A stretch of 60,439 bases of DNA from Candidatus Bipolaricaulota bacterium. Its GTDB lineage: Bacteria > Bipolaricaulota > Bipolaricaulia > Bipolaricaulales > Bipolaricaulaceae. Shown one piece after another: positions 20,906 through 57,111 of this stretch (positions are counted from its first letter, which is position 1; every line of letters starts with the position of its first letter). The DNA is taken from assembly GCA_026418075.1 (NCBI GenBank), contig JAOACA010000004.1, forward strand, positions 1 to 60,439. Reading direction: 5' to 3'. The translations under genes and the position numbers were made by a program. The notes below the pieces were generated by a model, which made no database searches, was not told the DNA's origin, and worked only from the letters and a program-made list of their open reading frames with translations.

Positions 20906-21011
20906 GCGGCGCGACCTTTCGGCGCATGACGGCGCGGGAAGGGCCCGGTAAGATCGGGCCCGATGCCGGGATGCCTGCGTGACGCCGCTTCCGCCCCCAA
21001 GGAGGGGTCCG

Positions 21012-40669: not shown

Positions 40670-40746
<77 letters not shown>

Positions 40747-40926: not shown

Positions 40927-40955
40927 TTGACGGGACCGGGGCCGCCCGCTATCCT
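40927..40955 (+). promoter_or_regulatory. Promoter of the liv / CoA-metabolism cluster
   Basis: TTGACG, exactly 17 bp, then TATCCT. About 60 nt of leader follow before the livH ATG at 41017, which has a GGGGGAGGCCGG ribosome site. It is the only clear promoter before the fifteen-gene run. The DNA between it and the tRNA promoter (40784-40926) shows no gene. Confidence 0.72.
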
Positions 40956-41016
40956 GAGAGATGATTCAGGTGTCATGGCCCGCCGCTGTGGCCCCTGAGG
41001 GGGAGGCCGGAAGACG

Positions 41017-41898
41017 ATGCTGGGACAGTTGGTCGTGAGCGGGCTCGCCGCCGGGAGCCTCTACGGGATCATGGCCCTCGGCCTCATCCTCATCTACAAG
41101 ACCACCCACATCCTCAACTTCGGCCAAGGCGACATGGTGATGTTCGCCACGTTCATCGCCTACCTCCTCCTCACCCTCTTCCGCTGGCCGTTCCCCGCCG
41201 CGGTTCTCGGGGCCATGGTCGCCGGCGCCCTCCTCGGGGCCCTCGTCGACCGCGGGGTCATGCGCTGGGCCCGGAACGCCCCGGTCACGAGCCTGTTCAT
41301 CGCCACCCTCGGGGTGGGGATGATCCTCCAGGCCGTGGCGGGCTGGATCTGGGGCTACGACACGAAACCCTTCCCCTACGCCCTCCGGGGGCGGCCCCTG
41401 TTCCTGGGGGACGTGGTCCTCCGCCAGCACGACCTCCTCGTCCTCGTGGTCACGGTCCTCATCTCCCTTGTGCTCTTCCTCCTGTTCAAGTTCACGAAGG
41501 TGGGGGTGGCGATGCGGGCCACGTCCCAGAACCGCCGGGCGGCGCAGCTCATGGGGATCAACGTTGGGCGGATCGGGACCCTGAGCTGGGCCCTGGGCCT
41601 GGGGATCGGGGCCCTGGCGGGGTGCCTGGTGGCCCCGATCGTGTACCTCGACCTCACCTCGATGATCCTCGTCATGATCAAGGCGATTGCCGCGGCGGTC
41701 CTCGGGGGGTTCACGAGCCTTCCCGGGGCGGTGGTGGGGGGGCTCCTCCTCGGGGTCATCGAGAACCTGTTCGGGGGCTACATGCCGAGCGCGATCGCCC
41801 CGTTGAAGACGACGTTCGTGTTCGTCCTCATCATCGTCGTCCTCGTCCTGCGGCCCCACGGGCTCCTCGGGGAGCGGACGGCGGGAGGCCACGGATGA
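41017..41898 (+). CDS. livH: Branched-chain amino-acid-type ABC permease LivH
   Basis: The 293-residue permease has about eight helices. GLAAGSLYGIMALGLILIYKT and LNFGQGDMVMFATFIAYLL are the standard LivH start, and AAVLGGFTSLPGAVVGGLLLGVIEN the C-terminal signature. Liv-type systems also import amides, urea, aromatic acids and dicarboxylates, so the name does not fix the substrate. It is coupled to livM by an ATGA overlap. Confidence 0.94.
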   Translation: MLGQLVVSGLAAGSLYGIMALGLILIYKTTHILNFGQGDMVMFATFIAYLLLTLFRWPFPAAVLGAMVAGALLGALVDRGVMRWARNAPVTSLFIATLGVGMILQAVAGWIWGYDTKPFPYALRGRPLFLGDVVLRQHDLLVLVVTVLISLVLFLLFKFTKVGVAMRATSQNRRAAQLMGINVGRIGTLSWALGLGIGALAGCLVAPIVYLDLTSMILVMIKAIAAAVLGGFTSLPGAVVGGLLLGVIENLFGGYMPSAIAPLKTTFVFVLIIVVLVLRPHGLLGERTAGGHG

Positions 41899-42878
41899 GG
41901 GGAGTCCTCTTCGCCCTCCTCCTCGTGGGGCTTCTTGCCGCGGTCCCCCTGTGGGCGAAGACGTACGACCTCTACCTCCTGAGCCTGGCTGCGGCCAACG
42001 TGATCGCGGCGGTCGGGCTGGCCCTCCTCACCGGGTTCACCGGCCAGCTCTCGATCGGGAACGCGGGGTTCCTGGCCATCGGGGCTTACGGCGCGGCCCT
42101 CATCGTGAAGCACCTCGGGGTGGAGTTCTGGGTGGCGATCCCCCTTGCGGGCCTTCTGAGTGGCCTTACCGGGTTCCTCCTCCTCATCCCCGCGCTGCGC
42201 CTGACCGCGATCTACCTCGCCATCGCCACGTTGGCGTTCGGAACCGCCGTCTCGGAGGCGCTCCCCCGGTGGGCGTCCGTGACGGGAGGATACCAGGGAA
42301 TGCGGGTTCCCCCGGCCCGGTTTCTCGGCTTGAACGTTCAAAACGACGTCGCGATGTTCTACCTCGCCCTGGCGGTCACGGTGGTCATGGTCCTCCTGGC
42401 GCGGAACCTCATCCGATCGCGCGTCGGCCGGGCGTTCATCGCGATCCGGGACAAGCCCGCCGCGGCCCAGGCCTGCGGGGTGAGCCTGACCCGGTACAAG
42501 GCCCTCGCCTTCTTCCTGAGCGCCCTGTTCACCGGGATCGCGGGCGGGCTCTACGCCCATGTGGTGGGGTACATCAGCCCCTCCGAGTTTGGCCTCGGAA
42601 AGTCCATCAACCTGTTCGTGATGATCGCCCTGGGGGGGATGGCCTCCCTTCCCGGGCCGGTCTTGGGCGCCGTGTTCCTCACCTACCTTCCCCACTGGCT
42701 GAGCGGGATCCGGGGGCTCCAGGACGTCCTCTACGGCGCGGCCCTCATCGGGATCGTGGTGTTCATGCCCTACGGGGCGTGGGGGTTTGTCCGGAAGTGG
42801 ACGGCCCCGGACAAGGTGGCCCGGCTTCCCCGGCCCGTCCGCGCCGCCGCGGAGTTCGTCCTCGGGAGGACCCGATGA
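41895..42878 (+). CDS. livM: Branched-chain amino-acid-type ABC permease LivM
   Basis: The 327-residue permease has the LivM hallmarks GLALLTGFTGQLSIGNAGFLAIGAYG (as overlapping phrases near residue 45), AIRDKPAAAQACGVSLTRYK and GGMASLPGPVLGAVFL. It completes the membrane pore with LivH. Its ATG overlaps the livH stop and its stop overlaps the livG ATG. Confidence 0.94.
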   Translation: MRGVLFALLLVGLLAAVPLWAKTYDLYLLSLAAANVIAAVGLALLTGFTGQLSIGNAGFLAIGAYGAALIVKHLGVEFWVAIPLAGLLSGLTGFLLLIPALRLTAIYLAIATLAFGTAVSEALPRWASVTGGYQGMRVPPARFLGLNVQNDVAMFYLALAVTVVMVLLARNLIRSRVGRAFIAIRDKPAAAQACGVSLTRYKALAFFLSALFTGIAGGLYAHVVGYISPSEFGLGKSINLFVMIALGGMASLPGPVLGAVFLTYLPHWLSGIRGLQDVLYGAALIGIVVFMPYGAWGFVRKWTAPDKVARLPRPVRAAAEFVLGRTR

Positions 42879-43651
42879 ACGCCCTCCTTTCCGTCTCCGG
42901 GCTCACCAAGCGGTTTGGGGGCCTGACCGCTGTGGACGGGCTCGACTTCTCCGTCGCGGAGGGCCAGATTGTGGGGCTCATCGGCCCCAACGGGGCGGGG
43001 AAGACGACGGTGTTCAACCTCATCTCCCGGCTCCTTGAGCCCAACGCCGGGGCCATCACGTTCGCGGGCCAGAACCTCCTCGCCTTCCCTCCTCACCGGG
43101 TGGTGACCCTTGGGATTGCCCGGACGTTTCAGAACCTGGGGCTGTTTCCGTACCTTTCGGTGCTGGACAACCTCCTCGTGGGCCGGCACCGCGGGTTCCG
43201 CGGGGGGGTGCTCCCCCTGGCCCTGGGGCTGGGCTGGGGGGAGGAGCGGCGGGCGCGGGAGGAGGCGCTGGGGGTGCTGCGGTCCTTCGGGATGGAGGCC
43301 CTCGCCCCGGCCCCGGCGTCCCTGCTCCCCTACGGGACCCAGAAGGCGGTGGAGCTCGTCCGGGCCCTCATGGCCCGGCCCCGGCTCCTCCTCCTCGATG
43401 AGCCCGTAGCCGGGATGAACGCCACCGAGACGGCGACCATGGCCCAGTTCATCCGCCGGATCCGGGACGAGCGGGGGGTGACCGTCCTCCTCGTCGAGCA
43501 CGACATGTCCCTCGTGATGGAGATCTGCGACCACATCGTGGTCCTCGACTTTGGGCGGAAGATCGCCGAGGGGCCGCCGGCGGAAATCCAGCGGAACCCC
43601 AGGGTGATCGAGGCCTACCTCGGGGAGGAGGTGGGGCGTGCTCGCCTGTGA
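42875..43651 (+). CDS. livG: Liv-type ABC ATPase LivG
   Basis: The 258-residue ATPase has Walker A GPNGAGKTTVFNL (about 37-49), ARTFQNLGLFPYLSVLDNLLVG (Q-loop, in overlapping phrases), Walker B LLLLDEPVAGMN and switch His in LLVEHDMSLVM. The usual signature LSGGQ reads LPYGTQK, as in many LivG proteins. GGGAGGA precedes the ATG. Confidence 0.95.
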   Translation: MNALLSVSGLTKRFGGLTAVDGLDFSVAEGQIVGLIGPNGAGKTTVFNLISRLLEPNAGAITFAGQNLLAFPPHRVVTLGIARTFQNLGLFPYLSVLDNLLVGRHRGFRGGVLPLALGLGWGEERRAREEALGVLRSFGMEALAPAPASLLPYGTQKAVELVRALMARPRLLLLDEPVAGMNATETATMAQFIRRIRDERGVTVLLVEHDMSLVMEICDHIVVLDFGRKIAEGPPAEIQRNPRVIEAYLGEEVGRARL

Positions 43652-44393
43652 GGGGGTGAACGCGTTCTACGGGCCGATCCACGCCCTGAAGGACGTCACG
43701 TTCGCCGTGGAGCGGGGGACGATCGTGGCGGTTCTCGGGGCCAACGGGGCGGGGAAGACGACCCTCATGAACACGATTTCCGGCCTTGTCCGGCCCCGGT
43801 CCGGGGCGATCCACCTCGACGGCCGGAGGATCGACCGGCTCGCGCCGGAGCGGATCGTCCGCCTGGGGGTGACCCAGGTCCCCGAGGGGCGGCAGCTGTT
43901 TCCCGACCTCACCGTGGCCGAGAACCTGCGGATGGGGGCGTACCTCCGGCGGGGAGCCGCGGTCCGTCAGGACTTGGCGGCGGTGCTGGAGCGGTTCCCG
44001 GCCCTGAAGGACCGGACGCGCCAGCTTGCTGGGACCCTCAGCGGAGGGGAGCAGCAGATGCTCGCCATCGGCCGGGCCCTCATGGCCCGGCCCCGCCTCC
44101 TCCTCCTCGACGAGCCCTCCCTCGGCCTATCCCCGATCCTCGTCCGGCAGCTCTTCCGGACCTTGGGGGAGCTCGGGCGGGAGGGCATTTCGATGGTCCT
44201 CGCCGAACAGAACGCCTACCTCTCCCTGGAGGTGGCCCAGATGGGGATCGTCCTTGAGACCGGTCGGGTAGCCCTCCAAGGTCCAAGCCCGGAGCTGCGT
44301 CAAACCGACCGGGTGCGGCAGCTGTACTTGGGTGTGCGGAGCGGGGACGTTTCCCCCCAAGGAGGTGGTGCGCCGGGAGGCAAAGGGACGTGA
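43638..44393 (+). CDS. livF: Liv-type ABC ATPase LivF
   Basis: The 251-residue ATPase has ANGAGKTTLMNT (Walker A), VPEGRQLFPDLTVAENL (LivF-specific), LSGGEQQMLAIGRALM, LLLLDEPSLGL and VLAEQN (switch). GTG 43638 lies 14 nt inside livG. The C-terminal 15 residues are Gly-rich and non-conserved. Confidence 0.95.
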   Translation: MLACEGVNAFYGPIHALKDVTFAVERGTIVAVLGANGAGKTTLMNTISGLVRPRSGAIHLDGRRIDRLAPERIVRLGVTQVPEGRQLFPDLTVAENLRMGAYLRRGAAVRQDLAAVLERFPALKDRTRQLAGTLSGGEQQMLAIGRALMARPRLLLLDEPSLGLSPILVRQLFRTLGELGREGISMVLAEQNAYLSLEVAQMGIVLETGRVALQGPSPELRQTDRVRQLYLGVRSGDVSPQGGGAPGGKGT

Positions 44394-44407
44394 GGAGCTA
44401 GGTCCGT

Positions 44408-44427
44408 GGAAAAGCGAATTCTTTTCC
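44408..44427 (+). other. AT-rich hairpin before the binding-protein gene
   Basis: A perfect 7-bp stem GGAAAAG/CTTTTCC with loop CGAATT sits between livF and the binding-protein gene, just before AAGGAGG at 44432. It is unlike the surrounding G+C-rich DNA. It could be an RNA-processing or stability element that raises binding-protein expression, or an internal terminator. Confidence 0.5.
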
Positions 44428-44444
44428 CAAAAAGGAGGAGTCCG

Positions 44445-45626
44445 ATGAAGCGCGTGCTCATTCTGGCAGTGGCGTGGGGGATGTTGGCCGCGGGGGCCCT
44501 GGGTCAGACCCCGGGGGTGACCGACACCACGATCAAGCTTGGATCGTTCATCGCCCAATCGGGTCCAGTGGCCGTGATCGGGATCCCGGTGATGAAGGGC
44601 GCCCAGGCCTGGTACAGCTATGTGAACGACGTGTTGGGGGGAATCCATGGGCGGAAGATTCAGTTCCTGGCCCTTGACGACGCGTTCAATCCCGCGAACA
44701 CCGTGGCGGTGGTGAAGCGGCTTGTGGAGCAGGAGAACATCTTCGCCCTCGTGAACCCGCTGGGGACGATCGGGATGGCCGCGGTGTGGAATTACATCCT
44801 GCAGAACAAGGTTCCCGTGGTCTCCCCGCACATGAACTGGCTCACTCTGGCTAGCCCGACGGTTTCCCACGTGTTTGCCCTCCAGCCGAACAACGAGTCG
44901 TTTGGGCGAGCCGCGGCCCAGTACGCGGTCCTGGAGACGAAGGCGAAGCGAATCGGGATCGCGGTGGTGGAGGACGCGATGGGCACCGAGCTCTTGAACT
45001 TCGCCCTCGACGAGCTCAAGTACTGGGGGCTCCAGCCCGTGGTCGTGGTGAAGTACCCGGGGACGGAGACGAACTTCAGCGCCTACGCCCAGGTCCTCCG
45101 GCAGAGCAAGGCCGAGGCGGTGCTCCTCTTCAGCTACCTTGCCGACGCGGCCAAGCTCATCGTGGAATGCGACCTTTTGGGGTACAAGCCCCAGTTCATT
45201 GGGATCAACACGATCACGCTGCAGCTGTTTGATCTGGCCGGGAAGGCCGCCGAGGGCGTGGTGTTCCCCGGGTTCGGGACGGACCCCCAGGATCCCACGA
45301 GCCCGGCCGCAGCGAAGATGCGGGAGATCTACGCCCGCTACTACCCGGGCGAGGTGATGAACGCCTACGCCATGATCGCGTTCGTCGGGGCCCAGCTGGT
45401 GACCAAGGCCCTTCAGGACGCTGGTCCGAACCTGACCCGGGAGGCGTTCATTGCCGCCCTCAACAAGGTCAAGGACTGGAACGCGGACGGGATGATCCCG
45501 CCCATCACCTACACTCCGGACGACCACTACGGGATCAAGACCCTGTGGATGAACCAGCTCAAGACGGTGGACGGGGTCCGGACCGCGGTGTTCCTCAAGG
45601 AGTGGAACTGGGCCGCTAACCGCTAA
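44445..45626 (+). CDS. Liv-type ABC substrate-binding protein
   Basis: The 393-residue protein has a signal peptide (MKRVLILAVAWGMLAAGALG, no lipobox Cys) and a type-1 periplasmic binding fold (GVTDTTIKLGSFIAQSGPVAVIG; NPLGTIGMAAVWNYI; VVEDAMGTELLNFALDELKYWG). ATG 44445 is chosen because AAGGAGG lies 6 nt upstream; an upstream in-frame GTG at 44406 would bury the signal peptide. Placement at the end of livHMGF and before CoA-ligase genes suggests the ligand is the compound those enzymes use. Confidence 0.9.
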   Translation: MKRVLILAVAWGMLAAGALGQTPGVTDTTIKLGSFIAQSGPVAVIGIPVMKGAQAWYSYVNDVLGGIHGRKIQFLALDDAFNPANTVAVVKRLVEQENIFALVNPLGTIGMAAVWNYILQNKVPVVSPHMNWLTLASPTVSHVFALQPNNESFGRAAAQYAVLETKAKRIGIAVVEDAMGTELLNFALDELKYWGLQPVVVVKYPGTETNFSAYAQVLRQSKAEAVLLFSYLADAAKLIVECDLLGYKPQFIGINTITLQLFDLAGKAAEGVVFPGFGTDPQDPTSPAAAKMREIYARYYPGEVMNAYAMIAFVGAQLVTKALQDAGPNLTREAFIAALNKVKDWNADGMIPPITYTPDDHYGIKTLWMNQLKTVDGVRTAVFLKEWNWAANR

Positions 45627-45635
45627 TAGGGGTGG

Positions 45636-45662
45636 GGGAGGGGTCGGTTCCCGGCCCCTCCC
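45636..45662 (+). terminator. Strong G+C hairpin between transporter and enzyme genes
   Basis: A 12-bp stem (one G-T pair) GGGAGGGGTCGG/CCGGCCCCTCCC with a TTC loop starts 10 nt after the binding-protein stop. Only a weak T-rich tail (CCCGTTCTT) follows, so it may attenuate rather than fully end transcription into the enzyme genes. Confidence 0.5.
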
Positions 45663-45697
45663 CTCCCGTTCTTGAGGGGGAGAGCAGGCAGGGGACG

Positions 45698-46744
45698 ATG
45701 GCGCACATCCACGAGCCCGTGGGCATCGTCAGCGTCGGGATGTACCTTCCCGAGCGGGTGATCACCGCCGCCGAGATCGCCGCCGAAAGCGGCCTTCCGG
45801 AGTGGGTGGTCCGGGAAAAGCTGGGGATCACCGAGAAGCGGATGGCCCCCCCCGACCTCCACCCCAACGCGATGGGGGTCCTCGCGGCGCAAGATTGCCT
45901 CTCCCGGTGCGACATCCCCCCCGAGGAGATCGACGTCGTCCTCTGCACCACCGAGGAGTGGCGGGAGTACCTCCTCTGGACCTCGGGGATCGACCTCGCC
46001 TACCAGATCGGGGCCACCCGGGCCTGGGGGATGGACCTCCACATGCGCTGTTGCACCACCGTGGCGGCGATGAAGATCGCCAAGGACATGATGCAGTCCG
46101 ACCCCGAGATCCGGACCGTCCTCATCGCGGGGGGATACCGGGTGGGGGACCTCATCAACTTCAAAAACCTCCGGACCACGTTTCTGTTCAACATCGGGGC
46201 TGGGGCGGGGGCGATGCTCCTCCGCCGCGGGTGGCCCCGAAACCACCTTCTCGGGTTTCACCTCATCACCGACGGCTCGATGAGCCGGGACGTGATTGTG
46301 CCTGCCAGCGGCACGGTCCAGTTCCCCACCGATGACGCGGTGGCCAAGGGCCTCTTTAAGTTCGACCTCGTGAACGAGGAGAAGATGAAGTCCCGTCTGA
46401 ACGAGGTCTCCATGGACAACTGGATGCGCTGCGTGGACGAGGCCCTGCGGAAAAGCGGGCGCACCCGGGAGGACGTGGACTTCCTCAACATGGTCCTCAT
46501 CAAGCCCTCGGGGTACCGGGACATGCTGGCGCGCCTGGGGCTCACCGAGGAGCACGGGGTGTACAACGACCGCTACGGTCACATCGGCGAGCAGGACACG
46601 ATCATCAACATCATCGAGGGGCTGAGGCTCGGGCGGCTCAAGGACGGGGACCTCATGGTCATGGTGGCGGCGGGGATTGGCTACGTGTGGGGCGCGGGCG
46701 TGGTCCGGTGGGGCCCGTGCCAGGAGGGGGATCGATGCGGCTAG
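45698..46744 (+). CDS. KASIII/HMG-CoA-synthase-like condensing enzyme with altered active site
   Basis: The 348-residue protein has a thiolase-superfamily fold of the FabH/HMG-CoA-synthase type: VGIVSVGMYLPERVITAAEIA, LGITEKRM, and the nucleophile region MRCCTTVAAMKIA with Cys118/Cys119. The two other FabH catalytic residues are changed. The HQAN His position is Lys269 (VLIKPSGYRD), and the GNTSA Asn position is His295 (DRYGHIGEQDT). It therefore probably does not do standard FabH chemistry; acyl transfer or C-C cleavage on CoA substrates is more likely. The ATG at 45698 follows CAGGGGACG. The stop overlaps the SDR gene by 10 nt. Confidence 0.8.
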   Translation: MAHIHEPVGIVSVGMYLPERVITAAEIAAESGLPEWVVREKLGITEKRMAPPDLHPNAMGVLAAQDCLSRCDIPPEEIDVVLCTTEEWREYLLWTSGIDLAYQIGATRAWGMDLHMRCCTTVAAMKIAKDMMQSDPEIRTVLIAGGYRVGDLINFKNLRTTFLFNIGAGAGAMLLRRGWPRNHLLGFHLITDGSMSRDVIVPASGTVQFPTDDAVAKGLFKFDLVNEEKMKSRLNEVSMDNWMRCVDEALRKSGRTREDVDFLNMVLIKPSGYRDMLARLGLTEEHGVYNDRYGHIGEQDTIINIIEGLRLGRLKDGDLMVMVAAGIGYVWGAGVVRWGPCQEGDRCG

Positions 46745-47499
46745 AGGGAAAGGTGGCCCTGATCACCGGTGGGGCGGCGGGGATTGGGCTTGCCACCGCG
46801 CGGCGGTTTGTGGAGGAGGGGGCGGTGGTGGCGTTCTGCGACGTCTCCTCCGAGGCGGGGGAACGGGCGGCAGCCGAGCTCGGGCCCCGGGCGAGCTTCC
46901 ACCGGGTGGACGTGACCGACGGGGCGGCGGTGGAGGCGTGGGTGGCCGAGGTCCACGGGAAACACGGCCGGATCGATATCCTCGTCAACAACGCCGGGAT
47001 CATCCGCGACCACCAGCTCGTGCGGGTCAAAGACGGGGAGATCGTGGGGCGGATGGCGGAGGCCGACTTCGACCTTGTGCTCGCGGTGAACCTCAAGGGG
47101 ACGTTCCTCTGCACCCGGGCCGTGGTCCCGATCATGATCCGCCAGCGCTCAGGCGTGATCCTCAACGCCTCGTCCATTGCGGGCTTGGATGGGAACTTCG
47201 GGCAGACGAACTACGTCGCCACCAAGGCGGGGATCGTGGGGATGACGAAAGTGTGGGCGCGGGAGCTTGGAAAGTACGGGATCCGGGTGAACGCCGTGGC
47301 CCCCGGGTTCACGGCCACCGAGATCCTCCGCACGATGCCGGAGAAGGTCCTCGAGGGGATCCGGTCCCGGACCCCGTTGGGGCGGCTGGGGGACCCCCGG
47401 GACATTGCCAACGCCTACCTGTTCCTCGCCTCGGACGAGGCCGCGTTCATCACCGGGGCTGTGCTTCGCGTGGACGGGGGGCTCGTCCTCGGGACCTGA
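46735..47499 (+). CDS. Short-chain dehydrogenase/reductase (FabG-like)
   Basis: The 254-residue SDR has cofactor loop GGAAGIGLA (residues 12-20), Asp in FCDVSS (favouring NAD), NNAGI, catalytic Ser in LNASSIAG, Tyr-Lys in NYVATKAG, and the C-terminal GAVLRVDGG. A short insert (QLVRVKDGEIVGRM) follows NNAGI. It likely interconverts a hydroxyacyl- and ketoacyl-CoA in the pathway. CAGGAGGGG precedes the ATG. Confidence 0.92.
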   Translation: MRLEGKVALITGGAAGIGLATARRFVEEGAVVAFCDVSSEAGERAAAELGPRASFHRVDVTDGAAVEAWVAEVHGKHGRIDILVNNAGIIRDHQLVRVKDGEIVGRMAEADFDLVLAVNLKGTFLCTRAVVPIMIRQRSGVILNASSIAGLDGNFGQTNYVATKAGIVGMTKVWARELGKYGIRVNAVAPGFTATEILRTMPEKVLEGIRSRTPLGRLGDPRDIANAYLFLASDEAAFITGAVLRVDGGLVLGT

Positions 47500-47510
47500 G
47501 GGAGGGCACC

Positions 47511-49028: not shown

Positions 49029-49030
49029 GG

Positions 49031-50584
49031 ATGTACATCGGGGACTACCTCGGCCGGCGCGAGCTCTACTCCCCGGACGCGCTCGCCGTGGTCGACCACG
49101 GGAAGGATCCTCTCGTTCGGCTCACTTACCGGGAGATGAACGAGCGGGCGAACCGCCTGGCCCACTGGCTGGCCGAGGGTGCGGGGGTGAAGAAGGGGGA
49201 CCGGGTCTCGATCCTCGCCCGGGATGGCTACGAACACCTCGTCCTCTTCTTCGCCTGCGGGAAGCTCGGGGCGATCCACACCCCCCTCAACTGGCGCCTC
49301 CACCCCCGGGAGCTCTCCGCCCTGGTGGCGAAGACCACGCCCCGGGTCCTCGTCTACGATGAGGAGTTCCGGCCCGTGGCCGAGGAGCTCCGGCGGACCG
49401 CCCAGGCCGGCGTTCTTCAGGCCCTCCTCCACCTCGACGGCCCAGGGCTCCGGGGCTCGGTCCCCTGGCCGGAGGCCCTCGCCCGCTCCCCCACGACACC
49501 AGTGGAGTGCCCGAGCCTGGAAGCGGAGGACCCAGCCTGCATCCTGTTCACCGGCGGAACCACCGGGCTCCCCAAAGCCGTCCTCATCTCCCACCGCATG
49601 ATCGCCTGGAACGTCCTCAACACGATCATCCACGACCTCCGGCCTGGCGACGTGGTCCTCAACGTATTTCCTCTGTTCCACGCCGGGGGCCTCTTCTGCT
49701 ACTGGTCGTCCCAGGTCGTGCTCGGAAACACGACGATCCAGGTCCGCCGGTTCGACCCGGAGCAGGTCCTCGACCTCATCGAACGGGAGCGGGTGACGGT
49801 GTTTGCCGGGGTTCCGTCGATGTACCTCCTCCTCACCCAGGCCCCGAACTGGGAGCGGGCTGATCTTTCGAGCCTTCGGTTCTGCACAAGCGGGGGCGCC
49901 CCGCTCCCCGTTCCCCTGATCGAGAAGTACGTCCGGGAGAAGGGGGTGCGGTTCAAGCAGGGGTTTGGGATGACCGAGTTCGGGCCGGGGGTGTTCGCCC
50001 TGGCTGCCGAGGACGCCCTGCGCAAGGCGGGGAGCATTGGCCGCCCGAACTTCTTCGTCGACGCCCGGGTCGTGGACGACGAAAACCGCCCCGTGGGCCC
50101 GGGCGTCGTCGGGGAGCTCGTCCTCAAGGGGCCGTCCCTGTGCTCGGGCTACTTTGGCGACCCCGCGGCCACCGCCGAGCTCGTGGACGAGGAGGGGTAC
50201 TTCCACACCGGCGACCTCGTGACCTACGACGAGGAGCGCTACTTCTACGTCGTGGGCCGGAAAAAGGACATGTTCATCTCGGGAGGGGAGAACGTCTACC
50301 CCTTGGAGATCGAGGAGGTCCTCCACCGGCACCCCGCGGTGGCGACCTGCGCGGTGGTGGGGATTCCCGACCCGACCTGGGGGGAGGTGGGGGCGGCGTG
50401 CGTGGTCCTCAAGCCGGGGCACCGGGCTACAGCCGAGGAGCTCCTCGCCTACCTCCGGGACCACCTCGCCCGGTACAAGGTCCCCAAGAGGGTCGTGTTC
50501 CTCGACGCCCTCCCCCTCTCCGGGATGGGAAAACCCCTCAAGGACGAGCTCCGGAAGGGGCTCCTCGAAGGGAGGTACAAGTGA
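49031..50584 (+). CDS. Acyl-CoA ligase (ANL superfamily), copy 2
   Basis: The 517-residue enzyme is related to the preceding ligase but clearly diverged. Its P-loop reads FTGGTTGLPKAV, where Gly replaces the usual Ser. GFGMTEFGPG, YFHTGDLVTYD, GRKKDMFISGGENVYPLEIEE and the Lys in GMGKPLKDELR are otherwise standard. The GTGAGG spacer before its ATG serves as ribosome site. The stop overlaps the thiolase GTG. Confidence 0.92.
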   Translation: MYIGDYLGRRELYSPDALAVVDHGKDPLVRLTYREMNERANRLAHWLAEGAGVKKGDRVSILARDGYEHLVLFFACGKLGAIHTPLNWRLHPRELSALVAKTTPRVLVYDEEFRPVAEELRRTAQAGVLQALLHLDGPGLRGSVPWPEALARSPTTPVECPSLEAEDPACILFTGGTTGLPKAVLISHRMIAWNVLNTIIHDLRPGDVVLNVFPLFHAGGLFCYWSSQVVLGNTTIQVRRFDPEQVLDLIERERVTVFAGVPSMYLLLTQAPNWERADLSSLRFCTSGGAPLPVPLIEKYVREKGVRFKQGFGMTEFGPGVFALAAEDALRKAGSIGRPNFFVDARVVDDENRPVGPGVVGELVLKGPSLCSGYFGDPAATAELVDEEGYFHTGDLVTYDEERYFYVVGRKKDMFISGGENVYPLEIEEVLHRHPAVATCAVVGIPDPTWGEVGAACVVLKPGHRATAEELLAYLRDHLARYKVPKRVVFLDALPLSGMGKPLKDELRKGLLEGRYK

Positions 50585-51840
50585 GCGGGAAGCTGGGCCG
50601 GCCCGTGTGCCTCGTCGGCGCGGGGATGAGCAAGTTTGGGGCGTTTCCCGACAAGGATAGCCGCGACCTCTTTGTCGAAGCCTTCCAGGACCTCCGGGGG
50701 AGCGTGGACAAGGGGCTCGACCCCGGGGAGATCGAGGCCGTCTACCTCGGGAACTTTTCCAGCGACCTCTTCGAGCACCAGGGGCACCTCGCCCCGATCC
50801 TCGCCGACTGGGTTGGTCTCACCCCCCGGGCCGCGCTGCGGCTGGAGGACGCCTGCGCGAGCGGAGGCGTGACCCTCCGCCAGGCGGTCCTCGCCGTGGC
50901 CGCGGGGGCCTACGAGGTCGTCCTCGCCGCCGGGGTGGAACGGATGACCGCCCTCCCGACGGAGGCCGTCACGGATACCCTGGCGACAGCCGGTGACGTC
51001 CTGTACGAATTCCCGGCCGGATTCACGTTCCCCGGGTTCTACGCCGCCATGGCCACCGCCTACGCCGCCCGGTACGGGATGCCCTACGAGGCCCTGTGGG
51101 AGGTCGCGCGGAAGAACCACCTCCATGCTTCCCGCAACGACAAGGCCCAGTTCCCGATGACCATTCGGGAGATCATGGACCGGCGGATCGCGAAGGCGCG
51201 GGAGAAGGGGGGGCCGGTTCCGGGTTGGAAGGACGAACGGGAGTTCCTCCGGGATCCGGGGGCGAACCCGCCCGTGGCCTGGCCGCTCCGGCTCTTCGAC
51301 TGCTCCCCGATCACGGACGGGGCGGCGGCGGTCCTCGTGGTGGCGGAGGAGGTGGCCCGGCGGTTCACGGACCGGCCGGTGCGGGTCCTGGGAACGGGCC
51401 AGGCGAGCGACGCCTGCCTCTACGGTCGGGAGGACCTGACCTCCCTCCGGGCGGCCCGGGAGGCCGCGGCCCAGGCCTACACGGCCGCCGGGGTGAAACC
51501 GTCCCGGATTCGGCTTGCCGAGGTCCACGACTGCTTCACGATCGCCGAGGTCCTGGCCATCGAGGACCTCGGGTTCTTCCCCCCGGGTCAAGGCTGGCGG
51601 GCGACGGTCGACGGGGCCACCCGCTGGGACGGCCCGCTTCCGGTGAACACCTCGGGCGGGCTCAAGGCCAAGGGCCACCCCGTGGGGGCCTCGGGCGTGG
51701 CCCAGGCGGTGGAGCTCTGGAAGCAACTCCGGGGCGAGGCCGGGGCGCGCCAGGTCCCGGGGGACCCCGACGTGGCCCTCGCCCACAACGTGGGCGGCAC
51801 CGGCCAGACGTGCGTGGTCCACATCCTCGGAAGGGGGTAG
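50581..51840 (+). CDS. Thiolase-family protein (SCP-x/acetyl-CoA C-acyltransferase type)
   Basis: The 419-residue protein has nucleophile Cys92 in LRLEDACASGGVTLRQA, EVHDCFTIAE (His), GGLKAKGHPVGASG (His) and HNVGGTGQTC at the end. This is the lipid-transfer/SCP-x branch, whose members usually need a DUF35 partner, and that gene follows 2 nt later. It could cleave a ketoacyl-CoA, condense acyl-CoAs or act as an aldolase-type C-C lyase. GTG 50581 overlaps the ligase stop (GTGA). Confidence 0.9.
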   Translation: MSGKLGRPVCLVGAGMSKFGAFPDKDSRDLFVEAFQDLRGSVDKGLDPGEIEAVYLGNFSSDLFEHQGHLAPILADWVGLTPRAALRLEDACASGGVTLRQAVLAVAAGAYEVVLAAGVERMTALPTEAVTDTLATAGDVLYEFPAGFTFPGFYAAMATAYAARYGMPYEALWEVARKNHLHASRNDKAQFPMTIREIMDRRIAKAREKGGPVPGWKDEREFLRDPGANPPVAWPLRLFDCSPITDGAAAVLVVAEEVARRFTDRPVRVLGTGQASDACLYGREDLTSLRAAREAAAQAYTAAGVKPSRIRLAEVHDCFTIAEVLAIEDLGFFPPGQGWRATVDGATRWDGPLPVNTSGGLKAKGHPVGASGVAQAVELWKQLRGEAGARQVPGDPDVALAHNVGGTGQTCVVHILGRG

Positions 51841-51842
51841 CG

Positions 51843-52250
51843 ATGGCGAACGACGTCTTCACCCGCGCTGCGTGGGAGAGAGGCCTCGCCCAGGGGAAGC
51901 TCCTGGGGGTCCGCTGCGGGGACTGCGGGGCGGTGTCCGCCGTCCCCCGGGCCCTGTGCGCGGCCTGCCGCGGGGGAAACCTCGGGTGGGTGGAGCTTTC
52001 CGGCCGGGGGACGCTCGCAGCCTTCACCGTTGTCCACGTCCCTCCGACCCCCCTGTGCGCCGCGGGCTACGGCCGGGACAACCCCTACGCCGCGGCGGTC
52101 GTCCGCCTGGTCGAGGGACCGGCGATCACGGCGCGCCTGGTGGGGGTGGACGTCCGCCGCCCGGAGGGGATCCGGGTGGGGGCTCCCGTCCGGGCCGAGT
52201 TCCTCCGCGAGGGCGATCGGACCGTCCTCGCCTTCCGGCCGGAGGGCTAG
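51843..52250 (+). CDS. DUF35 Zn-ribbon/OB-fold partner of the thiolase
   Basis: The 135-residue protein has a rubredoxin-like zinc ribbon (GVRCGDCGAVSAVPRALCAACRG in overlapping phrases, about residues 22-44) followed by an OB-fold with GRGTLAAFTVVHVPPTP. DUF35 proteins form complexes with thiolases and HMG-CoA synthases and channel acyl-CoA. The pairing with the preceding thiolase is direct. Confidence 0.92.
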   Translation: MANDVFTRAAWERGLAQGKLLGVRCGDCGAVSAVPRALCAACRGGNLGWVELSGRGTLAAFTVVHVPPTPLCAAGYGRDNPYAAAVVRLVEGPAITARLVGVDVRRPEGIRVGAPVRAEFLREGDRTVLAFRPEG

Positions 52251-53059
52251 TGCCCCACGCCCGGGTCCACGGGGCCACCCTCTACTACGAAACCCACGGC
52301 TGGGAGGGGGACGCCGACGTCGTCGCCCTCCTGAACGGGGTCCTCATGAGCACGGCCGGTTGGGCGGCTCAAATCCGGCCCGTCAGCGCCCGCTACCGCC
52401 TCCTCCTCCACGACGGCCGGGGGATGTGGAAGTCGGAGCACCCGCCGGGTCCGTACTCCCTCGAGCTCCACGCCGACGACCTCGTCGGGCTCCTCGACCA
52501 CCTCGGGGTCGAGCGGGCCCACCTTGCGGGCATCTCCTATGGGGCAGAGATCGCCCTCACCTGCGCGCTCCGCCACCCAGATCGGGTGGCGAGCCTGTTC
52601 CTCTCCTCGGCGGTGGCGTGTCCCGACCCCCTCCTCCGGGCTCAGATCGAGTCCTGGGCGGCCGCCGCGGAGAGGGAGGACCCCGAGCTCCTGTGGCATC
52701 TCGTCTTCGCGGCGAGCTTCTCCCGGAGGTGGATCGAGGAGCACCCCGGGGAGCGGGAGGCGGGGGCCCGCCGGTACGCCTCCCTCGATTTCCGGGCCGC
52801 GGCCGAGCTCTTCCGGGCCTTCCTCCGCTACGATGTTTCAGAGGAGCTTGGGCGGGTCCGGGTCCCCACCCTCGTCCTCGTGGGGGAGGAAGACGCCCTC
52901 AAGCCCCCCCGGCACGCGGAGGCCCTGGCCCGGGGAATCCGGGGGGCGGAGTTCCTCGTCGTCCCCGGGGCGGGGCACGCCCTGTGCCTCGAGCGGCCCG
53001 GGGAGTTCAACACGGTCCTGTTGGGGTTTTTGGCCAAGCACGCCCGGGGACGGGCGTGA
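52250..53059 (+). CDS. Alpha/beta hydrolase (first of three)
   Basis: The 269-residue enzyme has nucleophile Ser in LAGISYGAEIAL, Asp in LVGEEDALKPP and His in GAGHALCLERP. The oxyanion-hole region reads LLNGVLMSTAGW rather than the common HGxP. The start is GTG 52250, which shares the final G of the DUF35 stop and follows GGCCGGAGGG. It resembles the 3-oxoadipate enol-lactonase group in phrasing, and ester, lactone or C-C bond substrates are all possible. Confidence 0.86.
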   Translation: MPHARVHGATLYYETHGWEGDADVVALLNGVLMSTAGWAAQIRPVSARYRLLLHDGRGMWKSEHPPGPYSLELHADDLVGLLDHLGVERAHLAGISYGAEIALTCALRHPDRVASLFLSSAVACPDPLLRAQIESWAAAAEREDPELLWHLVFAASFSRRWIEEHPGEREAGARRYASLDFRAAAELFRAFLRYDVSEELGRVRVPTLVLVGEEDALKPPRHAEALARGIRGAEFLVVPGAGHALCLERPGEFNTVLLGFLAKHARGRA

Positions 53060-53071
53060 GGAGGTGGGACG

Positions 53072-54133
53072 ATGGCGGTTCCGACGATCAAAGGGATCGA
53101 AGCGCGGACGGTGGAGACGCGGCGGCTCCGGACGCGGGTCCTCTTCTCCGGGCCCGCGGGCGGGGTACCGGTCCTCTTCCTCCACGGGAACCTCGCCTCC
53201 GCCACCTGGTGGGAGGAGACGATGCTCCGGCTCCCGAAGGGGTTCCGGGGGATCGCCCCCGACCAGCGGGGGTACGGGGAGGCGGACCCGGAGGCGAAGA
53301 TCGATGCCCGACGGGGCCTCGGGGACCTCGCGGATGACGCGGTGGCCCTCCTCGATCACCTCGGGGTCGAGAAGGCCCACGTGGTGGGGAGCTCGCTTGG
53401 GGGGAGCGTGGTCTGGCACCTCCTTGCCCGCTACCCGACGCGGCTCCTTTCGGCCGTCCTCGTGGCCCCGGGTTCCCCGTACGGGTTTGGGGGGACGAAG
53501 GACGAGCGGGGGACCCCGTGCGCGCCGGACTACGCCGGGTCCGGGGCGGGGCTTGTGAACCCCGAGCTCGTCCGGAGGCTTGCCGCAGGCGACCGGTCGA
53601 CGGAGAGCCTGTTTTCGCCCCGGTCGGCCCTGCGGAACCTCGTGTTCGGTCCCCCGTTTGTCCCCGCTCGGGAGGAGGACCTCCTCTCCGCCACCCTGTC
53701 CGTCCACCTTGGGGAACGGGACTACCCCGGGGACTTCGTCCCCTCGCCCCACTGGCCGTTTGTGGCCCCCGGGGTGTGGGGCCCGAACAACGCCCTCTCC
53801 CCCAAGTACGCCGTCCCGGCGCAGGAGATCATCGCCGCGCACCCCAAGGTCCCGGTCCTGTGGATCCGGGGCGGGAAGGACCTCGCGGTCTCCGATCAGG
53901 CGGCCTCGGACCCCGGGAACCTCGGGCGGATGGGGCTCCTGCCCGGCTGGCCGGGGATGGACGCCTACCCGCCCCAGCCGATGCTCAAGCAAACCCGGTA
54001 CGTCCTTGCGGAGTACGCGAAGGCGGGCGGCCGCTACGAGGAGGTCGTCCTCCCCGAGAGTGCCCACGTCCCGTTCCTCGATAACCCCGCGGGGTTCGAC
54101 CGGGCGTTCCACGCCCACCTCCTCCAGGGATGA
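53072..54133 (+). CDS. Alpha/beta hydrolase (tandem paralog A)
   Basis: This 353-residue protein is larger than the usual 270-300. VLFLHGNLASATWWEET gives the oxyanion hole, nucleophile Ser lies in VVGSSLGGSVVWHL, Asp in WIRGGKDLAVSD and His in PESAHVPFLDNP. The extra length is a cap insertion (about 150-260), including GFGGTKDERGTP and LSPKYAVPAQE. It is a tandem duplicate of the next gene, with long identical blocks throughout. It overlaps that gene by ATGA. Confidence 0.88.
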   Translation: MAVPTIKGIEARTVETRRLRTRVLFSGPAGGVPVLFLHGNLASATWWEETMLRLPKGFRGIAPDQRGYGEADPEAKIDARRGLGDLADDAVALLDHLGVEKAHVVGSSLGGSVVWHLLARYPTRLLSAVLVAPGSPYGFGGTKDERGTPCAPDYAGSGAGLVNPELVRRLAAGDRSTESLFSPRSALRNLVFGPPFVPAREEDLLSATLSVHLGERDYPGDFVPSPHWPFVAPGVWGPNNALSPKYAVPAQEIIAAHPKVPVLWIRGGKDLAVSDQAASDPGNLGRMGLLPGWPGMDAYPPQPMLKQTRYVLAEYAKAGGRYEEVVLPESAHVPFLDNPAGFDRAFHAHLLQG

Positions 54134-55206
54134 GCTACCGGTCCGCGATCCCGACCCTGGAGGGTGTCGAGGCCCGCTGGGTCGCGACCCCGCGCCTGGC
54201 GACCCGGGTCCTCTTCTCCGGCCCGGAGGACGGGGAGCCGGTCCTCTTCCTCCACGGGAACCTCTCCTCGGCCACGTGGTGGGAGGAGACGCTGGTCGCC
54301 CTTCCCCGACGCTTCCGGGGGATCGCCCCCGACCTGCGGGGGTTTGGGGAGGCCGATCCGGAGGCGGTGGTGGACGCGACGCGGGGGATGGGGGACTTCG
54401 CCGAGGACGCGATCGCCCTCCTGAATCACCTGCGGATCGAGCGGGCCCACCTCGTGGGGAACTCGCTTGGGGGGGTGATTGTCTACCACCTCCTCGCCCG
54501 CTACCCGGACCGGTGGTGGACGGCAACCCTGGTGGGCCCCGGGTCCCCCTACGGGTTCGGGGGGACGAAGGACGAGCGGGGGACGCCCTGGTTCCCTGAC
54601 TACGCCGGCTCGGGCGGGGGCCTGTTTAGCCCGAAGCTCATCGGGCGGATCGCGGCCCGGGACCGCTCGACCGAACACCGGTTCTCCCCCCGGAACGCCC
54701 TCCGCGACCTCGTCTACAAGCGGCCGTTCGTCCCTCCCCGGGAGGAGGCGATGCTCGACGCCCTGTTTCAGGTCCACCTCGGGGAGAAGGCCCTCCCGGG
54801 GGACGTCGTCCGAAGCCCGAACTGGCCGTACTTCGCCCCGGGGCGGTGGGGGGCGACGAACGCCCTCTCCCCCAAGTACCTCCTCCGCCCGGAGGAGCTC
54901 TGGCGGGCCGAGCCGAAGGTCCCCGTCCTGTGGGTCCGGGGGGCGGACGACGTGGCGATCTCCGACCGGGCGGCCTCGGATCCGGTGACGTTTGGGGAGA
55001 TGGGCCTCATCCCCGGCTGGCCCGGGCCCGAGGTCTGTCCCCATCAGCCGATGCTCAAGCAGACCCGGTACGCCTTGGAGCGGTATCAGGAGGCCGGGGG
55101 ACGGTACTGGGAGGTCGTGATCCCCGATTGCGGGCACGTGGCGTTCATCGAAAGGCCCCGGGAGTTCCACGCGGTCTTCCACGCCCACCTGCGGGGCGAG
55201 CTCTAG
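54130..55206 (+). CDS. Alpha/beta hydrolase (tandem paralog B)
   Basis: The 358-residue protein is colinear with the preceding hydrolase, sharing VLFLHGNL-SATWWEET, APGSPYGFGGTKDERGTP-like, LSPKY and MLKQTRY blocks. Its triad is Ser in LVGNSLGGVIVYHL, Asp in WVRGADDVAISD and His in DCGHVAFIERP. Both copies keep intact catalytic residues, so the duplication is likely functional, for two related substrates or a heteromer. Confidence 0.88.
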   Translation: MSYRSAIPTLEGVEARWVATPRLATRVLFSGPEDGEPVLFLHGNLSSATWWEETLVALPRRFRGIAPDLRGFGEADPEAVVDATRGMGDFAEDAIALLNHLRIERAHLVGNSLGGVIVYHLLARYPDRWWTATLVGPGSPYGFGGTKDERGTPWFPDYAGSGGGLFSPKLIGRIAARDRSTEHRFSPRNALRDLVYKRPFVPPREEAMLDALFQVHLGEKALPGDVVRSPNWPYFAPGRWGATNALSPKYLLRPEELWRAEPKVPVLWVRGADDVAISDRAASDPVTFGEMGLIPGWPGPEVCPHQPMLKQTRYALERYQEAGGRYWEVVIPDCGHVAFIERPREFHAVFHAHLRGEL

Positions 55207-55215
55207 GAGGAAGAG

Positions 55216-57111
55216 ATGAAGCTCACGTACGAAGAGGTGTACCGCCGCTCGATCGCCGACCCCGAGGGGTTCTGGGGGGAGGAGGCGGAGCGGCTCCATT
55301 GGTTTCGGAAGCCGGAGCAGATCCTGGACGCGAGCCAGGCCCCCTTCTTCCGCTGGTTCCCCGGGGGGGAGACGAACCTCTGCTACAACGCCGTCGACCG
55401 GCACGTCCTCGGGGGCCGGGGGGACAAGCCCGCGATCCTCTGGGAGAGCCCGGAGGCCGGTCGGAGCGCGGTCCTCACCTTCCGAGAGGTCCTGCGCGAG
55501 GTGAACCACTTCGCCGCGGTCCTCCAGAACCTGGGGGTCAGGAAGGGGGACCGCGTCCTCGTCTACATGCCAATGGTCCCCGAGGCCCTGATCGCGGTCC
55601 TCGCCTGCGTCCGGATCGGGGCGGTCCACTCCGTGGTCTTCGCCGGGTTCTCCGGGGAGGCCCTCGCCCACCGGATCGAGGACTCCGGGGCGCGGGTCGT
55701 CGTCACCGCCGACGCTGGCCTCCGCAAGGGAAAGCCCGTCGAGCTCAAGAAGATCGCCGACCGGGCCGTGGAGCTTGCCTCAACGAGGGTCGAGCACGTC
55801 GTGGTCCTTGACCGGGGGATCTCCCCCTGGGCAGCCGTTCCCGGCCGCGACGTCCGGTGGGACGAGGCGATGGCCGCTGCCAAGGACGCTGAGGTCCCGG
55901 CAGTCCCGGTGGAATCCACCGAACCGAGCTACATCCTCTACACCTCGGGGACAACGGGGAAGCCGAAAGGGGTGGTGCGGGACACGGGGGGGTACATGGT
56001 TGCCCTCCACACCTCGCTGCGCCTGATCTACGGCTGCGGGCCCGAGGACGTCTTCTGGTCTACCTCCGACATCGGGTGGGTCGTGGGCCACAGCTACATC
56101 ATCTACGGCCCCCTCCTCTACGGGATCCCGACCGTGGTTTACGAGGGGACGCCGGACAGCCCCCACCCCGGGATCTGGTGGGAGGTCGCGGCCAAGCACG
56201 GGGTGACGGTCCTCTTCTCCGCCCCCACGGCAATGCGGATGCTCCGGAAGTACCCCCCAAGCTGGGTCGAGCGCTACGACCTCGCGAAGCTCCGCCACGT
56301 GTTCCTCGCCGGGGAGCCCCTCGATGAGCCCACGTACCAGTGGGCTGTCGAGACCCTCAAGAAGCCGGTGGTGGACCACTACTGGCAGACCGAAAGCGGC
56401 TGGCCGATGATCACGAACCACATGGGCCTTCCGCCTCTGCCCTTCAAGCCCGGCTCTCCCACGAAGGCGGCGATCGGGTGGCGGCTCGAGGTGGTGGACG
56501 AGAAGGGGGATCCCCGGCCCGCCGGGGAACGGGGCTACCTTGTCGCCCATCCTCCGCTTCCCCCGGGGGCGCTCCAGACCCTGTGGCGGGACGACGAGCG
56601 GTACGTCGCAAGCTACTGGAACTACTTCGCTAAGTACGGGAAGAGGCTCTACTTCTCCGGGGACTACGCGATCCGGGATGAGGACGGCTACTTCCGGCTT
56701 CTGGGGAGAGCCGACGAGGTGATCAACGTCGCCGGTCACCGGATGGGGACCCGGGAGGTGGAAGAGGTCGTCTCCGCCCACCCGGCCGTGGCCGAGGTGT
56801 CCGCGATCGGGGTCGAGGACGAGATCAAGGGCGAGGCGATCGCGGTGTTCGTCGTCCTCAAGAAGGGGGTTGAGGAGACGGAGAAGCTCCACGGGGAGAT
56901 CGTGGGGCTCATCCGGGAGAACATCGGCCCCATCGCCACCCCAAAGGTCCTCCGCGTCGTCCCCCGCCTCCCCAAGACCCGGTCCGGGAAGGTCATGCGG
57001 CGGGTCCTCAAGGCGCTGTGCGAGGGGAAGGCGATGGGGGACCTGTCCACGATCGAGGACGGGGCGAGCGTGGACGAGGTCCGGGCGGCGTTGGAGGAGC
57101 TAGCCCACTAG
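55216..57111 (+). CDS. Propionate/acetate--CoA ligase
   Basis: The 631-residue enzyme is of the Acs/PrpE type: WFPGGETNLCYNAVDRH start, P-loop YTSGTTGKPKGVV, SDIGWVVGHSYIIYGPLL, DHYWQTESGWP (acyl-pocket Trp as in short-chain ligases), GRADEVINVAGHRMGT and the acetylatable Lys in KTRSGKVMRR. It is nearer propionyl-CoA synthetases in length and phrasing. AGGAGGAAG precedes the ATG. It ends the cluster and could recover a short-chain acid released by the hydrolases. Confidence 0.92.
   Translation: MKLTYEEVYRRSIADPEGFWGEEAERLHWFRKPEQILDASQAPFFRWFPGGETNLCYNAVDRHVLGGRGDKPAILWESPEAGRSAVLTFREVLREVNHFAAVLQNLGVRKGDRVLVYMPMVPEALIAVLACVRIGAVHSVVFAGFSGEALAHRIEDSGARVVVTADAGLRKGKPVELKKIADRAVELASTRVEHVVVLDRGISPWAAVPGRDVRWDEAMAAAKDAEVPAVPVESTEPSYILYTSGTTGKPKGVVRDTGGYMVALHTSLRLIYGCGPEDVFWSTSDIGWVVGHSYIIYGPLLYGIPTVVYEGTPDSPHPGIWWEVAAKHGVTVLFSAPTAMRMLRKYPPSWVERYDLAKLRHVFLAGEPLDEPTYQWAVETLKKPVVDHYWQTESGWPMITNHMGLPPLPFKPGSPTKAAIGWRLEVVDEKGDPRPAGERGYLVAHPPLPPGALQTLWRDDERYVASYWNYFAKYGKRLYFSGDYAIRDEDGYFRLLGRADEVINVAGHRMGTREVEEVVSAHPAVAEVSAIGVEDEIKGEAIAVFVVLKKGVEETEKLHGEIVGLIRENIGPIATPKVLRVVPRLPKTRSGKVMRRVLKALCEGKAMGDLSTIEDGASVDEVRAALEELAH

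Follow-up and report, generated by a model that had tools for sequence, protein, structure and literature searches.

A Liv-importer operon in Candidatus Bipolaricaulota as a tentative route for beta-hydroxy acid catabolism, with a ketosynthase-fold protein that is not a FabH

The stretch of DNA analysed here (the window; 60,439 nucleotides of contig JAOACA010000004.1, assembly GCA_026418075.1) belongs to a Candidatus Bipolaricaulota metagenome-assembled genome (1.25 Mb, 85.6% complete) and carries a fifteen-gene run (41017–57111, + strand) for a Liv-type importer, coenzyme A (CoA) ligases, a thiolase, hydrolases and a protein of the ketoacyl synthase III type (KASIII; the window's protein is called KAS below). 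We read this run, tentatively and as a real possibility, as an operon under regulation that breaks down beta-hydroxy acids. These would most likely be (R)-3-hydroxyalkanoates, of the sort that bacteria lay down as bioplastic, imported as such or in the form of short oligoesters; the substrate class is moderately likely, and the most likely candidates are 3-hydroxybutyrate and 3-hydroxyvalerate, or oligoesters such as those shed by polyhydroxybutyrate (PHB). Judged by its aligned active-site residues the KAS is not a FabH, and this altered active site, together with the reaction that it may carry out, is the novel part of the finding.

All fifteen open reading frames (ORFs) are present and co-directional, in a region of 71% GC; neighbouring genes are –14 to +12 bases apart, save for livF and the binding-protein gene (51) and for the latter and the KAS gene (71). 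An earlier note on this DNA had described such a run behind a single clear promoter; the run is real, nearly all its genes overlap or touch, the family names agree with the domain matches, and a sigma-70-type promoter (TTGACG-17-TATCCT) was found at 40927–40955 on the + strand and is kept in relatives. The genes thus named would form, as the note had it, one apparent transcription unit to import, activate and cleave an acid. Importer, activation and cleavage stood, and the substrate, which the note had left as an acid, can be narrowed to what is probably a beta-hydroxy (or beta-oxo) acid of the (R)-3-hydroxyalkanoate type, perhaps as oligoesters.

In the proposed pathway the anion would be imported by LivHMGF, with the permeases livH (41017–41898) and livM (41895–42878), both assigned to BPD_transp_2, the ATPases livG (42875–43651) and livF (43638–44393), which match the LivG and LivF models with scores below the cut-offs, and a Peripla_BP_6 binding protein (44445–45626). 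Ester or lactone bonds would be cut by alpha/beta hydrolases 2 (abh2, 53072–54133) and 3 (abh3, 54130–55206), perhaps also 1 (abh1, 52250–53059); Abhydrolase_1 was assigned to abh1 and abh2, and abh3, outside that scan, is 65% identical to abh2. Two AMP-binding ligases of the ANL type (47511–49028 and 49031–50584) would then make the 3-hydroxyacyl-CoA, turning ATP into AMP and pyrophosphate (PPi), a FabG-type short-chain dehydrogenase/reductase (SDR; adh_short_C2, 46735–47499) would oxidize it to the 3-oxoacyl-CoA, and a thiolase (Thiolase_N/C, 50581–51840) with its DUF35 partner protein (zf-ChsH2 plus OB, 51843–52250) would cleave this into acetyl-CoA and acetyl- or propionyl-CoA. An AMP-forming acetate/propionate-CoA ligase (PrpE/AcsA, ACAS_N, 55216–57111) would re-activate short acids or, in reverse, recover ATP from acyl-CoA, AMP and PPi. 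The KAS (ACP_syn_III) lies at 45698–46744.

Ordinary beta-oxidation, which the earlier note had already doubted, is unlikely and was rejected after genome-wide searches. An acyl-CoA dehydrogenase was found in none of 13 genomes (the same search was positive in 9 of 14 control genomes) and a crotonase in none of the seven carriers, that is, the window genome and six relatives (13 of 14 controls positive); elsewhere, one full-length crotonase occurs in the non-carrier G005 and a weak, below-cut-off match in G008 (G numbers denote genomes, L numbers loci). At 85.6% completeness an absence in the window genome alone is not proof, and the carriers G010 (99% complete), G011 and G015 (both 95%) are likewise without both enzymes. 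Because neither was found in the carriers, the substrate should enter already oxygenated at C3.

For comparison, a search that started from the KAS itself gave 76 loci, ordered by their similarity to it; their counts show what accompanies the KAS, not how frequent the KAS is. Counts based on ORF clusters (c numbers) are lower bounds, since for example the SDR of L032 was seen by tblastn and is absent from c2; the clustering placed the KAS in family c0 in 74 of the 76 loci and missed L038 and L104. The SDR, at 281 bits on the FabG model (cut-off 296), is FabG/PhaB-like, a group that presumably handles (R)-3-hydroxyacyl thioesters, and its Asp36, which we take to mark an NAD-type enzyme, is conserved in 50 of 53 SDRs. 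An SDR accompanies the KAS in at least 52 of the 76 loci and a PhaA-like thiolase in at least 32.

The hydrolases point towards polyhydroxyalkanoates (PHA). The top NCBIfam match of abh2 and abh3 is the intracellular short-chain-length PHA depolymerase NF050089 (73 and 71 bits), and their S112, D274 and H336 are invariant in 15/15 aligned relatives, although the Asp is our own assignment and many alpha/beta hydrolases share such a Ser-Asp-His triad. A predicted model of abh3 (predicted local distance difference test, pLDDT, 90) lay nearest in VIA-align to Bacillus thuringiensis PhaZ (Z 30.1/29.9 over 271–273 residues, root-mean-square deviation 2.6–2.8 Å), the next entry reaching Z 27.5. Relatives of abh2/3, 37–39% identical over most of their length, stand in three clostridial KAS loci (L058, L086 and L102). 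Another hydrolase family, c17, has 12 members, 11 of which pass the NF050089 cut-off of 300 (338–444 bits), L057 scoring 298.3; by record titles all come from Firmicutes or kin except L090 (Ichthyobacteriaceae). A further gene, c21, occurs in 8 of the 76 loci and holds GDxNPxH, which we take to be a hydratase motif, in seven of the eight; of three c21 proteins scanned, those of L049 and L054 match MaoC-type hydratases. The PHA link comes mostly from homologues in related, mostly Firmicutes, clusters.

The binding protein bears on what the Liv system carries. Its Asn255 aligns to Glu226 of the leucine-binding protein, which presumably holds the ligand's amino group, and this column holds Glu or Asp in 0/30 related binding proteins. 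Because the column is non-acidic, the Liv system is probably not an amino-acid importer.

A number of observations weigh against the (R)-3-hydroxyalkanoate reading. Both abh2 and abh3 fall far under the depolymerase cut-off and match that model only over residues ~30–147, Foldseek ranked CesB first for abh3, with the top two entries esterases/hydrolases and PhaZ third, and the hydrolases of L058 and L086 fail the same cut-off (102 and 131 bits). Family c17 occurs in only 12 of the 76 loci, L081 and L082 being near-identical, and is absent from the window's locus, while the c21 protein of L039 has neither a Pfam match nor the GDxNPxH motif. On the model for 3-hydroxybutyrate dehydrogenase, NF009093, the SDR reaches 192 bits where 258 are required, the binding proteins of type c24 (L038, L039, L040 and L076) have an acidic residue one position past the Glu226 column, and the KAS is given no needed job in the scheme. 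The best match of ligases 1 and 2 among solved structures is a feruloyl-CoA synthetase (8weu/8wev; 422/385 bits), followed by another protein at 357/300 bits. In favour of the reading, the PHA synthase PhaC was not found in 11 genomes, so that the esters would come from outside the cell, although this search was positive in just one of the 14 controls, about what a rare family would give. The likeness to the known degradation of PHB and (R)-3-hydroxybutyrate accordingly lies in the order of the chemistry, the PhaZ-like hydrolases, the FabG/PhaB-like SDR and the thiolase, whereas the window differs in having no PHA synthase found, in hydrolases 2 and 3 that score below the cut-off, and in its added Liv importer, DUF35 and KASIII-like protein, an arrangement unmet in the literature searched.

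The ligase matches would also suit the same module logic applied to an aryl or branched beta-hydroxy or beta-oxo acid (e.g., 3-aryl-3-hydroxypropanoate), the resulting acyl-CoA being excreted or used elsewhere. Thiolase and DUF35 pairs serve benzoylsuccinyl-CoA thiolase, whose BbsB (7pxp), which we take to pair with BbsA, is among the thiolase's matches. Nevertheless, the match to feruloyl-CoA synthetase may reflect no more than a shared family, PHA-depolymerase equivalogs occur in related loci, and no protein of the HGD-D family, which we presume to be linked to benzoyl-CoA reductase, passed the cut-off in nine genomes (2 of 14 controls positive), and we consider an aryl or branched substrate unlikely. 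An enol-lactone or lactone of a beta-keto acid, opened by abh1, activated with CoA and thiolysed in the style of the lower beta-ketoadipate pathway, is very unlikely: the best NCBIfam match of abh1 is indeed 3-oxoadipate enol-lactonase (PcaD, 144.7 bits) and abh1-like hydrolases (c11) occur in at least 24 of the 76 KAS loci, but the cut-off of 256 bits is not reached, and the SDR, abh2/3 and the PhaZ equivalogs of related loci would be left unexplained.

Under the (R)-3-hydroxyalkanoate reading, the last enzyme of the operon may, in reverse, save energy as ATP. PrpE/Acs passed the AcsA model TIGR02188 (728 bits, cut-off 725) and stayed below both PrpE models (863 and 803 bits, cut-offs 955 and 827). 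According to passages of a study on Syntrophus aciditrophicus, this bacterium runs Acs1 backwards to make ATP, and its authors propose that PPi from AMP-forming ligases feeds Acs1 (PMC4992975). The window shares with it AMP-forming ligases together with an Acs/PrpE enzyme, which in Bipolaricaulota may run in either direction. A CoA-transferase, present in at least 55 of the 76 loci, may replace the window's AMP-forming ligases and PrpE/Acs in the Firmicutes and Bacteroidales loci; the one scanned scored 313 bits on butyryl-CoA:acetate CoA-transferase (cut-off 675). In the parts consulted of a published Acetothermia reconstruction, the substrates are peptides, amino acids and sugars, and their fermentation yields acetate, formate and hydrogen; acetyl-CoA synthetases are proposed there as the source of acetate and ATP (PMC6092417). 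If our reading holds, the Bipolaricaulota gain a substrate class beyond these three, and it becomes apparent how fermenters probably live on the products of PHB breakdown.

The KAS scored 422.6 bits on NF005308 (PRK06840, '3-oxoacyl-ACP synthase'; cut-off 315), compared with 111 bits on the FabH model TIGR00747 (cut-off 292) and 34 of 353 (TIGR00748) and 50 of 244 bits (PRK04262) on HMG-CoA (3-hydroxy-3-methylglutaryl-CoA) synthase models. Its predicted model (pLDDT 93) has the KASIII fold by structure search; the 50 VIA matches listed, all of the KASIII family, span only Z 36.3–38.4 and for that reason do not choose a function. The active site was compared in an alignment of 74 c0 and 38 c3 proteins of 300–420 residues, the window's included, with 14 FabH. 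From the KAS alignment A1, five of 52 stretches were left out because of a stop codon. The FabH of the phylum have Cys/His/Asn in 14/14, while in all 74 c0 proteins the Cys is kept, a Leu, Val or Ile takes the place of the His, a Lys follows three residues later and a His takes the place of the Asn (C118, V266, K269 and H295 in the window); of these, C118, K269 and H295 are invariant. The sister family c3 has Cys, Thr and Tyr in 38/38, and in a protein of G071 that passes the c0 cut-off the His is replaced by Thr. The window's protein thus shares fold and nucleophile Cys with FabH and differs in that the active-site His and Asn are replaced. In 66 of the 74 c0 proteins, the window's clade not among them, a His stands one residue past the His place and may be a shifted catalytic His.

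The His/Asn pair of FabH drives malonyl decarboxylation; because it is replaced, neither c0 nor c3 should be a malonyl-using condensing enzyme. A role in fatty-acid synthesis was rejected on this ground, and the active site argues against the NCBI name of the c0 family. Of the earlier note's KASIII-like enzyme the fold and the Cys were borne out and normal condensing activity was not. The residues suggest a non-decarboxylating acyl-Cys enzyme. A possible but doubtful proposal is that c0 and c3 put the ketosynthase fold to a new use in catabolism, in which the acyl group of a 3-hydroxyacyl ester or free beta-oxo acid would pass to Cys118 and on to CoA, the bond energy being saved as a thioester and Lys269 holding the free carboxylate. 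It would be a testable new reaction of this fold and, if true, part of an undescribed catabolic module with varied transporters and CoA-activation enzymes in Bipolaricaulota, Chloroflexota, Firmicutes and Bacteroidota, found also on haloarchaeal plasmids, where the two loci examined carry only Liv with it.

Another job for the KAS would be in a three-part complex with thiolase and DUF35, archaeal or PhlACB-like, acting on beta-diketones, in acyl transfer, or in HMG-like condensation or its reverse. Passages on PhlACB and the archaeal thiolase/HMG-CoA synthase (HMGCS) complex describe that a KASIII/HMGCS-fold subunit can pair with thiolase and DUF35 (PMC6392133). The window's thiolase is of the archaeal/SCP-x type (427.8 bits on PRK06064, cut-off 420), keeps the nucleophile Cys and the GHP motif, has as best solved match an archaeal complex subunit (6esq) and is followed by the DUF35 gene; the genes of L037 and L145 run thiolase-DUF35-KAS. 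The KAS also retains Glu86/87, assumed to be the HMGCS Glu, besides Cys118, while PhlA, in the part of that source consulted, has neither Cys nor Glu (PMC6392133). The same types of thiolase, DUF35 and KASIII/HMGCS-fold protein thus share one operon, as gene adjacency only, but the KAS is no HMG-CoA synthase equivalog (34 bits on the archaeal one, cut-off 353), an importer and ligases stand in its context, and most KAS loci lack a window-type thiolase (6/76 have it) or DUF35, seen only in Bipolaricaulota and Chloroflexota loci. We regard such a complex as distinctly unlikely. Olefin or beta-lactone biosynthesis of the OleABCD kind draws on the same four superfamilies (KASIII-like, ANL, alpha/beta hydrolase and SDR), and OleA is among the Foldseek matches of the KAS from rank 34. 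No entry named OleA is among its 52 sequence matches at E ≤ 0.001, however, the SDR is of the classical FabG type whereas OleD is an extended-type SDR, and importer and thiolase do not fit, which makes this route extremely improbable.

The co-occurrence of these families near livHMGF, which the earlier note had suggested checking, recurs in relatives and in other phyla, and in several phyla the c0 gene has genes for importers, CoA-activating enzymes, SDRs and hydrolases as neighbours. The Chloroflexota locus L037 holds a reshuffled set that is similar to the window's without PrpE: KAS, SDR, both ligases, an abh2-like hydrolase, thiolase, DUF35, liv and a binding protein that belongs to another subtype. 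Subsets of the operon genes recur in Firmicutes and Bacteroidales. A c3 protein is found in at least 39 of the 76 KAS loci. A liv permease lies near the KAS in 30 of the 76 loci and none in 46 within the stretches examined; 30 of these 46 have family c9, read by eye as a sodium-solute symporter, with no NCBIfam model at the strict limit. A plasmid search gave only 10 haloarchaeal records (KAS 32–37% identical). In the two opened, L107 and L108, the KAS (36–37%) is directly downstream of the Liv permease gene, and the enzyme cluster was not found in these two loci. As a control on the liv link, 20 stretches from relatives were chosen as places with KAS matches under the cut-off: 14 hold a FabH with the PHQAN motif, none of the 14 with a liv permease, three (L147, L148 and L154) carry liv permeases beside a c3-like KAS, L157 has a KAS of yet another kind, L163 gave no match and L149 is not a KAS place.

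Within the phylum the cluster is patchy and is complete where assembly allows. Among 60 genomes searched, the window's own included, six relatives have a KAS 90–93% identical to the window's, the others giving matches of 22–31% (26–38% for two fragments) or none; across the phylum, a KAS over the NF005308 cut-off is present in 8 of 100 genomes, again counting the window's. The full fifteen-gene order is kept at 62–92% identity in four of the six (G001 and G002, loci L031 and L032; G010, L139; G015, L137 plus L138), and in G009 (7 genes, L033) and G011 (6 genes, L034) it is interrupted by contig ends. Loci that split liv from the enzymes, which the earlier note had named as speaking against its cluster, do occur, namely G007 and the 46 KAS loci without a liv permease. 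In G007 (L146) the operator described below and livHMG are kept, livF is matched only to residue 180, hyuB follows and the enzyme genes are gone. In G005 (L145), a non-carrier, operator, PrpE (79%) and hyuB flank a different, related cassette with thiolase-DUF35-KAS (25%), three SDRs, crotonase, hydrolase, binding protein, liv and ligase, one locus thus having its cassette swapped. In G040, a KAS of the c3 type is accompanied by liv, binding protein, SDR (74%), both ligases, thiolase, DUF35 and abh1, with no abh2/3 match. A described pathway with exactly this content, of which the note knew none, was not met in the portions of the open-licence PubMed Central literature searched.

The promoter is one of two promoter-like sites in 17 kb (shuffled sequences gave a mean of 0.4, standard deviation 0.6). 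A 21-bp palindrome (40955–40975, + strand) overlaps its end with the form TGA(C/G)AnnTGAnTCAnnTGTCA or near it, the left half being imperfect in the window; this palindrome and the promoter, as TTGACG-17-TAtgcT, are kept in all six loci that reach them, the window's included, and also in G005 and G007. With one mismatch allowed, the core TGATTCAGGTGTCA has a single occurrence per genome in 8 of 14 genomes, the reversed core giving zero matches in the 14; it sits at the operon promoter in six of the seven carriers, the other two genomes being G005 and G007, and the carrier without it, G009, has a contig that begins in livF. A protein of ~415 residues, which in our reading of its sequence consists of two TetR-like halves, is encoded directly upstream of the cluster in seven of eight loci, and a 43% identical one lies upstream of the divergent G071 cluster too. 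The window genome has this gene on another contig (C27). G003, G004 and G008 are without regulator, operator and KAS ortholog, and G006 has the regulator with no operator or KAS ortholog. From the operator's position relative to the promoter, a TetR-type regulator probably represses the operon through the 21-bp operator; the two together offer a ready handle for finding the inducer. In the window the expected place of the regulator is occupied by a tRNA-Pro (40670–40746, – strand), and in L032 (G002, contig C113) the double-TetR gene falls into two reading frames, owing to either a frameshift or a sequencing error.

Convergent with the operon, a hydantoinase/oxoprolinase-type B gene (hyuB; 287 bits to caprolactamase beta, cut-off 1000) and an A-like gene, named by position and eye, lie at 58048–60437 on the – strand; hyuB adjoins the cluster also in G001, G002, G010, G015, G005 and G007. 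An acetophenone/benzoylacetate route via hyuAB was rejected on the opposite strand of these genes and on the persistence of hyuB in G007 without the enzyme genes. A phloroglucinol-type route, which in passages of its description relies on an enzyme that cleaves beta-keto acids and on a CoA-transferase (PMC10470551), was likewise set aside, no search having been made for its ring-opening genes. Further upstream, at 20979–24237 on the + strand, two adjacent genes have starts that resemble, by eye, subunits of the FAD-dependent amine-oxidase type.

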